Assembly: GCA_004297945.1 (NCBI GenBank)
Contig: SCRC01000030.1
Coordinates: forward strand, 1-64,000
Length of the DNA: 64,000 nt
DNA from: Candidimonas sp.
Lineage (GTDB): Bacteria > Pseudomonadota > Gammaproteobacteria > Burkholderiales > Burkholderiaceae_B
Reading direction: 5' to 3'
A model generated the notes under the pieces. The model worked only from the letters and a program-made list of their open reading frames with translations. It made no database searches and was not told where the DNA came from. Positions 16,538-63,992 of this stretch are shown piece by piece. How positions within the stretch are numbered: the first letter of the stretch is position 1; every line of letters starts with the position of its first letter. A program made the translations under genes and the position numbers.

Positions 16538-16698
16538 GGCACCCACAAGGGGTGCCGCTACAGAACCGGCTGTGGCACCCACAAGGGGTGCCGCTACAGA
16601 ACCGGCTGTGGCACCCACAAGGGATGCCGCGCTACAGAACCGGCTGTGGCACCCACAAGGGGTGCCGCTACAGGGTGCCGCTACAGGGTGCCGCTACA
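16538..16698. repeat. Tandem array of REP-like elements (36-bp period, last units stuttered)
   Basis: GGCACCCACAAGGGGTGCCGCTACA at 16538, 16574, 16610 (variant) and 16648 separated by GAACCGGCTGT; then GGGTGCCGCTACA repeats. Confidence 0.9.
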
Positions 16699-16818
16699 TG
16701 AACGACGGGCACGTTTTGTAGAACCCGCCTCGCGGGCGCCAGAATCCGTCAGCGGCAGAATATCCGGCCGCTTGCTAAAATCATCAGCTGACAATCGAAA
16801 TCAAACCCTACGGCGGCC

Positions 16819-18012
16819 ATGAACCCACGATTAAGCGCCCTGCACCCTTATCCGTTTGAAAAACTGCGGCTACTGATGGCCCAGGCGCCCGTGCCGCCGG
16901 TCGACCTTGCACCGATCAATCTTTCCATCGGCGAACCCAAGCATGCCACCCCGGCGTTTATCGTCGATGCAATGAAAAACGCGATGGCAGGCCTGTCGGC
17001 GTATCCGCCCACCAAGGGCGATCCGGCCCTGCGCGGCGCGATTTCCAGCTGGATTGCCCGGCGCTACGGCATTGCGCGACCGGATCCCGATACGCAAATT
17101 CTACCGGCACTGGGCTCGCGCGAAGCCCTGTTTGCCTTTGCGCAGACGGTAATCGATCCTTCCGCAAACTCGCTGGCCGTATGTCCCAATCCGTTTTATC
17201 AGATCTACGAAGGCGCGGCACTTCTGGCCGGAGCCCAGCCCTGGTTTATCAACGCGCAGGAAAGCCTCAATTTCGGTTTTGACTGGAGGGCCGTGCCTGT
17301 CGACGTCTGGCGGCGAACCCGCCTGCTGTTTGTGTGTTCGCCTGGCAATCCGGCCGGCAACGTGATGGCTCTGGATGATTGGAAAACACTGTTCGCGCTG
17401 GCCGACGAATATGGCTTTGTCATTGCCTCGGACGAATGCTATTCGGAAATATATTTCAAGGAAACCGACAAGCCCCTGGGTGGACTGCAGGCGGCGAGCC
17501 TATTGGGGCGCAACGATTTCCGCGGCCTGATGTGTTTCTCCAGCCTGTCCAAACGCTCTAATGTGCCAGGCATGCGGTCTGGCTTTGTGGCGGGCGACGC
17601 AACGCTGATCAAACAATTTTTGCTCTATCGCACCTATCATGGCAGTGCCATCAGCCCAGTGGTGTCGCAGGCCAGCGTGGCGGCCTGGGGCGACGAAGCC
17701 CACGTTATCGAAAACCGCCGGCTATATCAGGAAAAATTTGATGCCCTGGTGCCGCTGCTCAAGCCTGTACTCAATGTAGAATGGCCCGATGCTTCGTTTT
17801 ATCTGTGGGCGAAAACGCCTTATGCCGACCTTGATTTTGCCCGCGATTTATACGGTGCAACTGCTGTGACGGTATTGCCAGGGAGCTTTCTGGCGCGCGA
17901 GGCCCATGGTATCAATCCAGGCGCAAACCGCATCCGCATCGCGCTGGTTGCGCCCAAAGAACAATGCCTGCAAGCCGCACATCGCATCGTACGGTTCATG
18001 GAAAACCGCTAA
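16819..18012 (+). CDS. dapC: Succinyldiaminopimelate transaminase
   Basis: Class I/II aminotransferase (INLSIGEPKHATP, SLSKRSNVPGMRSGF) immediately upstream of dapD and dapE. Confidence 0.88.
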   Translation: MNPRLSALHPYPFEKLRLLMAQAPVPPVDLAPINLSIGEPKHATPAFIVDAMKNAMAGLSAYPPTKGDPALRGAISSWIARRYGIARPDPDTQILPALGSREALFAFAQTVIDPSANSLAVCPNPFYQIYEGAALLAGAQPWFINAQESLNFGFDWRAVPVDVWRRTRLLFVCSPGNPAGNVMALDDWKTLFALADEYGFVIASDECYSEIYFKETDKPLGGLQAASLLGRNDFRGLMCFSSLSKRSNVPGMRSGFVAGDATLIKQFLLYRTYHGSAISPVVSQASVAAWGDEAHVIENRRLYQEKFDALVPLLKPVLNVEWPDASFYLWAKTPYADLDFARDLYGATAVTVLPGSFLAREAHGINPGANRIRIALVAPKEQCLQAAHRIVRFMENR

Positions 18013-18049
18013 CCCCCAACCTTACTTTCACTTTCACTACTAAACGACT

Positions 18050-18871
18050 ATGACTCTCGATCTGCAAAGCACTATCGAACAAGCCTGGATAAATCGTGCC
18101 CAAATCACCTCCGCCGTGGATAACGCGGCGCTGCGGGAGGCAGTGCAACATACCGTCCAGGCGCTGGATACCGGCCACCTGCGCGTCGCCGAAAAAATCG
18201 ATGATGAATGGGTGGTGCACCAGTGGATCAAAAAGGCGGTGCTTTTATCGTTCCGGCTCGAGCCAAACGAAATCATGGGTCAAGCGCCCATGCAGTACTA
18301 CGATAAGGTGCCGCTCAAGTTCGACGAATACGGCACACAGGCGTTCATTAACGGCGGGTTTCGCGTAGTGCCGCCCGCGGTCGTGCGCAAAGGCGCCTTC
18401 ATCGCCAAAAACGTGGTGCTGATGCCTTCGTACGTCAACATCGGCGCCTACGTCGGCGAAGGCACCATGGTCGACACCTGGGCCACGGTAGGCTCGTGCG
18501 CCCAGATCGGCAAAAACGTGCATTTATCGGGCGGTGTAGGAATAGGCGGTGTACTCGAACCGCTGCAGGCCAACCCCACCATCATTGAAGACAACTGCTT
18601 TATCGGCGCGCGCTCCGAGGTGGTCGAAGGCGTTATTGTGGAAGAAAACTCGGTGCTGGCCATGGGCGTGTTCCTGTCGCAAAGCACCAAGATTTACGAT
18701 CGCGCCAGCGGCAAAATTTCGTACGGCCGGATTCCTTCGGGCTCGGTCGTGGTGCCGGGGTCGCTGCCCGCGGCCGATGGCTCGCACAGCCTGGCCTGCG
18801 CCGTGATCGTCAAACGGGTCGACGCGCAAACGCGCTCCAAAACCAGCATTAACGATTTGCTGAGGGCTTGA
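18050..18871 (+). CDS. dapD: 2,3,4,5-tetrahydropyridine-2,6-dicarboxylate N-succinyltransferase
   Basis: 273 aa, left-handed beta-helix hexapeptides, conserved DapD sequence. Confidence 0.96.
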
Positions 18872-62382: not shown

Positions 62383-62394
62383 ACGAGCCGCCCG

Positions 62395-63957
62395 ATGAGC
62401 CTGTTCCGGTCGGCCGCAACGATTAGCAGCTTTACGCTATTTTCACGCATTACCGGCCTGGCTCGCGACGTGCTGATCGCCAGCACGTTTGGCGCCGGCC
62501 CCTTGACCGACGCCTTCTGGGTTGCCTTTCGCATCCCCAATCTATTGCGCCGCCTCTTTGCTGAGGGGGCCTTTTCGCAAGCCTTCATACCCATATTGGG
62601 ACAGGCGCGAACTAAAAATTCGCCGCAACAAGTACACATTCTGCTCGACCGTGTGGCGCTGCTTCTCACCGTGGTGTTGATGGCTGTCACGGTGCTCGGC
62701 ATTCTGGGAGCGCCGTGGGTCGTCACAGCCATGGCCAGCGGCCTGCGCGGCGCATCACACCATGCCGAATTCCACGCTGCCACTTGGATGACCCGGCTGA
62801 TGTTCCCCTACATCATCTGCATGTCGCTGGTCGCCTTCGCCTCGGCCGTGCTCAATACCTGGAGCCGGTTTGCTGTGCCGGCATTTACGCCGGTACTGCT
62901 GAACTTGTCAGTGATCGGGGCATGCCTGCTTCTGACCCGCTACGTCGATATCCCCATTTACGCGCTGGCAGTCGGGGTAATGATAGGCGGCGTGGCGCAA
63001 TTGATCGTACAGTGGTTCGCTCTGTCCCGGCTTGGCCTGCTGCCGCGCTATTCGTCAAGAGTGCGCGAAGCATGGCGGGACCCCACCGTCAAACGCATCA
63101 TGCGTCAAATGCTGCCGGCCATACTCGGCGTGTCGGTAGCGCAAATTTCTTTGCTTATCAACACCAATATTGCCACCTGGCTTGCCCCGGGCAGCGTCAC
63201 TTGGCTGTCCTTTGCTGATCGCCTGATGGAGTTTCCAACCTCGTTGCTGGGCGTCGCGCTGGGCACGGTTTTGCTGCCCAGCCTGTCGGCGGCCCACGCC
63301 AGACAAGATCATCAGGGCTACAGCGCTCTGCTCGACTGGGGCTTGCGCCTGGTGCTGCTGCTGGGCCTGCCCGCAGCACTCGGAATGGCCTTGCTGTCGA
63401 AAGGCCTGGTCGCCAGCCTGTTCAACTACGGGGCATTTAATGCGCATGATGTGCTGCAAACCCGTCTGGCGGTCATGGCGTACTCGGTCGGTCTGGTCGG
63501 GCTGCTGTCCATCAAGATTCTGGCGCCAGGCTTTTATGCCAAACAAGACATACGCACTCCGGTCAAAATCGGTATCTTCGTGCTGATTCTGACCCAAACC
63601 TTCAACGCGATTTTCGTGCCTTCCCTTGCCCATGCGGGGTTGGCGCTATCGATAGGCCTGGGCGCCAGCGTCAATGCCTTGTGCCTGCTGTGGGTATTGC
63701 GACGGCGAAAAATCTATGTGCCCCGCGCCGGCTGGGGCCGATTCGTTCTACGAATCATCCCCGCCATGGCCGCCCTGGCGGCCGTATTGCTTGCCGCCAA
63801 CCACGCCATCGACTGGATAGCACTGGCCCCTCACGCCGGACGGCGCCTTCTGTGGCTGGCGGGCGTACTGTTGGCAGGCGGCGTCGCCTATTTCTGTGCT
63901 TTATTCCTCTGCGGCTTTCGCCCCCACGACTTCACCCGCCGGGGATCGGGTTCGTGA
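62395..63957 (+). CDS. murJ: Lipid II flippase MurJ
   Basis: RITGLARDVLIASTFGAGPLTDAFWVAFRIPNLLRRLFAEGAFSQAFIPIL. Confidence 0.95.
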   Translation: MSLFRSAATISSFTLFSRITGLARDVLIASTFGAGPLTDAFWVAFRIPNLLRRLFAEGAFSQAFIPILGQARTKNSPQQVHILLDRVALLLTVVLMAVTVLGILGAPWVVTAMASGLRGASHHAEFHAATWMTRLMFPYIICMSLVAFASAVLNTWSRFAVPAFTPVLLNLSVIGACLLLTRYVDIPIYALAVGVMIGGVAQLIVQWFALSRLGLLPRYSSRVREAWRDPTVKRIMRQMLPAILGVSVAQISLLINTNIATWLAPGSVTWLSFADRLMEFPTSLLGVALGTVLLPSLSAAHARQDHQGYSALLDWGLRLVLLLGLPAALGMALLSKGLVASLFNYGAFNAHDVLQTRLAVMAYSVGLVGLLSIKILAPGFYAKQDIRTPVKIGIFVLILTQTFNAIFVPSLAHAGLALSIGLGASVNALCLLWVLRRRKIYVPRAGWGRFVLRIIPAMAALAAVLLAANHAIDWIALAPHAGRRLLWLAGVLLAGGVAYFCALFLCGFRPHDFTRRGSGS

Positions 63958-63967
63958 TTGGGTGCAA

Positions 63968-63992
63968 TGTAGCGGCCCCCCTCGTGGCTGCC
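63968..63992. repeat. REP-like element
   Basis: TGTAGCGGCCCCCCTCGTGGCTGCC. Confidence 0.7.

Follow-up and report, generated by a model that had tools for sequence, protein, structure and literature searches.

A 64,000-nucleotide stretch of contig SCRC01000030.1 (the whole stretch is here called the window) contains many copies of a short palindrome, which very probably make up a GTAG-type family of repetitive extragenic palindromic (REP) sequences of Paralcaligenes (Alcaligenaceae), spread most likely as folded single-stranded DNA by the one REP-associated tyrosine transposase (RAYT) of the genome. An initial annotation of the window had proposed a dispersed, intergenic GTAG REP family of the RAYT type, and the discovery of a RAYT gene flanked by the same repeats bears this out; the window itself holds none, as the annotation said, and the gene is found on contig C68 of the same genome. 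From these data we infer that the REPs are mobile. As far as the literature searched shows, this is the first high-copy REP family with its REPtron for the Alcaligenaceae, and the search found no publications on REPs in Paralcaligenes.

Copy number and stem pairing in two Paralcaligenes species

The genome (G000) is a metagenome-assembled genome (MAG) of 2.99 Mb in 125 contigs, 82.9% complete. Its only same-genus neighbour among the family genomes is P. ureilyticus DSM 24591 (G186, 99% complete), and the two species are ~88% identical in DNA sequence. Exact matches to GTAGC-N7-CTTGT numbered 629 across the MAG and 955 in P. ureilyticus, against 10 and 26 in the reversed controls; the other 267 of the 269 family genomes held at most 36 each, none above background. 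The family is thus not confined to the window, and its MAG copies, well above 100, are spread over many contigs. Shuffles and reversed-sequence controls rule out chance or base composition, and a single recent duplication is ruled out because many contigs, and a second species too, carry copies. None of the outcomes that the initial annotation had named as speaking against such a family (restriction to the window, lack of covariation, one recent duplication) occurred.

Statistics on covariation and arrangement, kept separate from the genome-wide counts, come from sampled stretches that add up to ~0.43 Mb in the MAG and to ~0.5-0.6 Mb in P. ureilyticus, in which 153 REPs (427 kb) and 148 REPs (474 kb) were found, with 5 in each reversed control. 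Each copy consists of GTAG at the foot of the palindrome, one unpaired C, a 7-bp stem and a 5-nt loop. The unpaired C is well conserved, as is an A after the 3' arm (149/154 and 197/208 copies). Four stems dominate the samples of both species: A (GGCAGCC), B (GGCACCC), C (GCCACCC) and D (GACAGGC), with a fifth, relic type E (GGCGACC/GGTCGCC). Stems A-D fold into the same hairpin at -7.5 to -8.8 kcal/mol, compared with -4.6 for a B/A hybrid. Such hybrids, with a B arm at the GTAG side and an A arm past the loop, occur in the MAG at C3:20474 and C10:14476; the reverse hybrid, with the A arm at the GTAG side, is rare, the MAG sample holding 4 hybrids of the first kind and 0 of the second.

Among copies chosen solely for their head and loop, the three variable stem pairs were Watson-Crick in 93.2% of cases in the MAG and 96.0% in P. 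ureilyticus, against 59.2% and 64.9% after shuffling, and none of 1000 shuffles reached the observed arm covariation. Stem covariation above expectation, foreseen in the initial annotation, was therefore found in both genomes. Its further step, that compensatory changes imply selection on the hairpin, is not supported in that form, since the paired changes are those that distinguish founder stems and private mutations are mostly one-sided. Deviations from the founder stems affected one arm in 92 cases and both in 4 in the MAG, and 28 and 9 in P. ureilyticus; of the combined 120 one-sided deviations 21 are G-T pairs, and most of the 13 paired ones are type E. Stem variation stems from four founders, common to both species, plus the relic type E. 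As the private mutations are mostly one-sided and unrepaired, selection or filtering at amplification, with spread confined to well-paired copies, fits better than upkeep of every hairpin.

The RAYT gene, its relatives and a possible mechanism

REP amplification and a RAYT gene co-occur in the same two of the 269 family genomes, the other 267 giving no RAYT match. The MAG has one such gene (contig C68, L031:1462-2076, 204 aa), and P. ureilyticus has one whose product is 79-80% identical. In both genomes the locus lies between hemL and a DUF1778/GNAT pair, syntenic by gene content, the names of the neighbours having been read from translations. Within ~250 bp of the gene stand REPs with stems A, B and D in the MAG and A, B, C and D in P. 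ureilyticus, and the stop codon of the MAG gene is the TAG of a REP head. Neither Paralcaligenes gene contains a REP, although most of the distant relatives do; in-frame REPs within tnpA are common in RAYT subclass 2.4 but not required (PMC6006769).

The protein carries the HUH motif NHIH, a WQ motif and YIANNP, and comparison of the two species gave a dN of 0.10 and a dS of 0.46-0.52 (dN/dS ~0.2); it is an intact HUH-Y1 protein under purifying selection. Its structure model (pLDDT 80.5) matched IS608, ISDra2 and the E. coli TnpAREP 4er8 in Foldseek, the last with an E value of 7.6e-5, TM scores of 0.50/0.61 and an rmsd of 4.0, as for a Y1 transposase/TnpAREP fold. Sequence models stayed under their cut-offs (NF047646, 49.9 of 80 bits; Pfam Y1_Tnp, 21.5 of 23), and a PDB sequence search gave nothing useful, the fold search alone yielding matches. 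By motifs, length, HUH-Y distance and REP type, the RAYT appears to fit subclass 2.4.

Two candidates for a second active RAYT were rejected. C7:123442 encodes an unrelated protein, and the weak match pair C54:97248 / C20:38190 is one conserved 229-aa RAYT-like protein without an HUH motif. The latter (MAG, C54 ~97248-97550, L070:1222-1911; P. ureilyticus, C20 ~38190, L069:1222-1911), which adjoins an apparent glutathione-dependent formaldehyde dehydrogenase gene in P. ureilyticus, is possibly a domesticated, catalytically dead relative.

RAYT relatives 36-46% identical were found in Chloroflexi, Nitrospirae, Cyanobacteria, Nitrosomonas and others. Their flanks and genes carry GTAG hairpins, mostly GTAGGGGC... 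(86 vs 6 in the reversed control), which also show paired stem variants. The Chloroflexi-labelled L033, on a short, low-coverage MAG contig that leaves the host label unsure, has GTAGGGGCGACCCTTGTGGTCGCCC three times; an identical 25-mer, corresponding to relic type E, occurs in P. ureilyticus. L039 and L040 cluster with Paralcaligenes and L033 with moderate support, and their hairpins have GTAGGGGC and a C-Y-TGT-like loop in common, with different paired stems. The shared 25-mer and the likeness of the L039/L040 hairpins suggest that the type E form may be ancestral to the Paralcaligenes family, which would then have lost the foot pair. Beside the L033 RAYT stand tandem partial REP units (GGGCGACCACAAGCA; L033:2350-3260), as in Paralcaligenes. 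Separately, fragments 87% identical to RAYT residues 23-99 occur in MAGs labelled Chitinophaga and Chryseobacterium (L062 and L063, 2501-2730), reflecting either transfer or misbinning.

In the mechanism that we favour, the RAYT would recognise the GTAG head, the loop and a well-paired stem, with the exact stem bases mattering less. A copy with a broken stem would then be a poor source for amplification, while a stem altered on both sides could found a new subfamily, and the expected outcome would be a constant head and loop with few amplified stem types; once inserted, copies would decay mainly through one-sided mutation. The supposed tolerance of stem variants is consistent with cleavage data for group-3 enzymes, where, in two REPtrons, stem mismatches strongly lower cleavage and many complement swaps have mild effects (PMC8266576).

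Arrangement and turnover of the copies

Allowing one mismatch, GTAGC-N7-CTTGT matched 18 times in the window (shuffle mean 2.25, maximum 6), and a finder scoring head, loop and pairing returned 14 full copies. These are listed with the associated partial units and spacers, by position in the window:

16538-16561, minus strand: REP, stem B (GGCACCC/GGGTGCC), opening an array with a period of 36 bp
16574-16597, minus strand: REP, stem B, array copy
~16610-16635: degenerate REP copy between the 16574 and 16648 array copies
16648-16671, minus strand: REP, stem B, array copy
16672-16698, minus strand: tandem partial REPs in 13-bp units, head and 5' arm only
22881-22904, plus strand: REP, stem A (GGCAGCC/GGCTGCC), CTCGT loop
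23307-23330, minus strand: REP, stem D (GACAGGC/GCCTGTC), GTAAC head
23331-23351, no strand: 21-bp spacer of a GTAG-inside dimer
23352-23375, plus strand: REP, stem C (GCCACCC/GGGTGGC)
33490-33513, plus strand: REP, stem D; 1/24 differences at the same site in P. ureilyticus
33514-33549, no strand: 36-bp spacer of a GTAG-outside dimer; 10/36 differences between species
33550-33573, minus strand: REP, stem C; P. ureilyticus copy identical
33581-33604, minus strand: additional REP, stem C; lacking in P. ureilyticus
51682-51705, plus strand: REP, stem B, followed by a T run (terminator-like)
51725-51748, minus strand: REP, stem A, same cluster as the 51682 copy
51749-51802, minus strand: three tandem partial REPs in 18-bp units, with head, 5' arm and loop, without 3' arm
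56960-56983, minus strand: REP, stem A
56984-57083, minus strand: tandem partial REPs in 20-bp units, with head, 5' arm and part of the spacer
57084-57107, plus strand: REP, stem B, GTGGC head
63969-63992, plus strand: decayed REP (GGCCCCC/GGCTGCC), 5/7 pairs, CTCGT loop; intact stem A at the P. ureilyticus site

All 12 sites listed in the initial annotation carry the element, with starts within 1 bp, and the four stems it described were all recovered with paired arms. Its invariant head and loop proved to be nearly constant, the exceptions being the CTCGT loops at 22881 and 63969 and the heads GTAAC (23307) and GTGGC (57084). The site list was short of two full copies (16574, 16648) and of the partial arrays, and the 63969 copy pairs at only 5/7 positions. 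The control for the count of partial GTAGC..GTAGC units was poor, and this count is used descriptively only. Since TTGT is present both in the usual TTGTAG context of the head and in the CTTGT loop, slippage could yield the 18-bp units. A known RNA family was rejected as the identity of the repeats, as Rfam reported only two tRNAs in the window.

The REPs stand in inverted dimers and mosaic clusters, and in both genomes the dimers are of two kinds. GTAG-inside dimers have a 20-22-bp spacer with the loose consensus ATGAnTnACGGGTACGTTTTT, and GTAG-outside dimers a spacer of mostly 36-42 bp; D stems often stand next to a GCAAGA-type spacer end. Tandem arrays, including partial units, have periods of 13, 18, 36 and 44 bp. 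Only 6 and 8 copies fall inside predicted open reading frames (ORFs), the rest being intergenic or at contig edges; one REP, at corresponding positions in the two species (G000:C54:75409, G186:C20:16100), lies within a predicted ORF rich in repeats. With genes called by a simple gene caller, 60-65% of convergent gaps contained REPs compared with 16-22% of divergent gaps, and REPs per kb were highest in convergent gaps. A T-rich tail follows 14-17% of copies, a figure with no background value. The hairpins may have a secondary role at gene ends, in termination or in the stability of RNA 3' ends.

The two species were compared over ~150 kb of synteny, in which the direction of events is not polarised. 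Most REP sites are common to both, with local turnover, and several are occupied in one species only. The window cluster 51682-51802 (two REPs plus partial copies) is absent from P. ureilyticus, and one REP with its 21-bp spacer differs in an otherwise conserved four-REP cluster (C3:35523-35713). At C3:2935 the dimer spacer is inverted between species (2/21 differences when inverted, 10/20 in the same orientation). Stems A and B replace each other at C3:21440 and C54:96939, and B stands opposite E at C10:6570 with the spacer kept. At a further orthologous site one species has an inverted C-C dimer and the other a single double-foot REP, GTAGC-GCCACCC-CTTGT-GGGTGGC-GCTAC; double-foot REPs are known in subclass 2.4, and their origin from an inverted dimer was suggested by Quentin et al. 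(PMC6006769). Across seven orthologous dimers, a small sample, divergence was 6.8% in the REPs, 19% in GTAG-outside spacers and 12% in GTAG-inside spacers; the lower divergence of REPs than of the 36-37-bp spacers at these seven loci points to some constraint or homogenisation acting on the copies. A DNA probe from C54 was without match in P. ureilyticus. At window positions 23303-23407, which hold a REP dimer only, P. ureilyticus has ~5.4 kb of extra DNA (L114:2957-8383), and REP sites may act as attractors of larger insertions.

Alternative explanations and known systems

The arms could stay complementary without selection or mobility if replication template switching in the hairpin, or gene conversion among copies, rewrote both of them. 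The three stem switches just described, the inverted spacer at C3:2935 and the fact that both hybrids (C3:20474, C10:14476) are pure A in the other species speak for such rewriting, but it would also repair private one-sided mutations, of which 120 stand against 13 paired ones, and it leaves many hundreds of dispersed copies unexplained; we regard it as rather unlikely. Slightly less probable still is that the hairpins persist mainly because they act in RNA at gene ends, as 3' end protection, RNase target or intrinsic terminator, with per-transcript selection keeping stems paired. Enrichment between convergent genes agrees with this, although purging of insertions near promoters would give the same bias; the low divergence of orthologous REPs (6.8% vs 19% for the longer spacers) and the T run after one window copy also favour it, but T-rich tails follow only the minority of copies given above, again without a background value, G-T pairs are a minority of deviations (21/120), and entire clusters are missing at orthologous sites. 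Purely local amplification, in which slippage and recombination multiplied a founder hairpin and the nearby RAYT is incidental, would account for the tandem arrays with partial units and for the sites common to both species. Copies on many contigs, sites filled in one species only and the recurrence of GTAG hairpins at RAYT genes of the same clade across phyla make it very improbable.

Spread by the RAYT remains the explanation that we prefer, and several points weigh against it. No transposition event was observed. Both genomes belong to one genus, so that the co-occurrence of REPs and RAYT counts as one evolutionary event, and the MAG, being 83% complete, may lack a second RAYT that the organism has, the 99% complete P. 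ureilyticus genome likewise holding a single one. As most REP sites are common to both species, slippage or recombination rather than the RAYT could explain much of the change, and the recognition data in the literature cover group 2 and 3 enzymes, not subclass 2.4. A bolder extension, which we think improbable, is that the stems accepted by one subclass-2.4 RAYT form an open-ended set, provided that head, loop and pairing are kept, and that this enzyme also reshapes existing clusters through spacer flips, gain or loss of a REP plus spacer, and fusion of dimers to double-foot REPs. If true, a constant head and loop with a variable paired stem would be a recognition code of the protein clade across phyla.

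Among known systems, the GTAG REP families that include SMAG of Stenotrophomonas maltophilia come close. Di Nocera et al. (2013; PMC3733652) describe, as found here, a short GC-rich hairpin with GTAG at its foot, present in hundreds of copies that are mostly intergenic and downstream of genes, and GTAG-inside and GTAG-outside dimers including heterodimers; they also already report subfamilies set apart by complementary changes in the stem. Their text, figures aside, yielded neither the Paralcaligenes stem nor the CTTGT loop nor the host genus, and in contrast to SMAG-type families, Paralcaligenes has a single RAYT for at least four stems. RAYT/TnpAREP subclass 2.4, equal to Bertels group 4 (Quentin et al. 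2018; PMC6006769), resembles the present enzyme in the motifs NH[IFV]H, WQ and YIxNNP, in a length of ~194-204 aa, in a long HUH-to-Y distance and in flanking GTAG REPs. It is reported mainly from Cyanobacteria and Bacteroidetes, whereas the present host is a betaproteobacterium with many hundreds of REPs, which lack the G-C foot pair (GTAGC...A, not GTAGG...C) and do not occur in the gene. E. coli bacterial interspersed mosaic elements, with Y, Z1 and Z2 REPs and a single REPtron, likewise combine several related stems with one RAYT, alternating REP orientation and two spacer classes; their stem is bulged and their enzyme belongs to subclass 2.2, whereas the Paralcaligenes stems are perfect 7-bp helices. 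The REPINs of Pseudomonas fluorescens (PMC3116915) are also inverted REP doublets, the probable mobile unit there and perhaps in Paralcaligenes, but their REP sequence is unrelated and their RAYT belongs to subclass 2.5.

REPtrons, heterodimers, complementary stem subfamilies and several subfamilies per RAYT are all described in earlier reports (PMC3733652, PMC6006769, PMC3686654). One RAYT with several stem types in two species ~88% identical makes it possible to ask what features of a REP are read by a RAYT, and the orthologous pairs capture events earlier proposed from single genomes, notably the double-foot REP opposite an inverted dimer. Apart from the REPs, two clean length differences separate the species, one of ~148 bp within an ORF (window 25966 vs L114:10945-11092) and one of ~67 bp (window 50901 vs L115:16906-16972).

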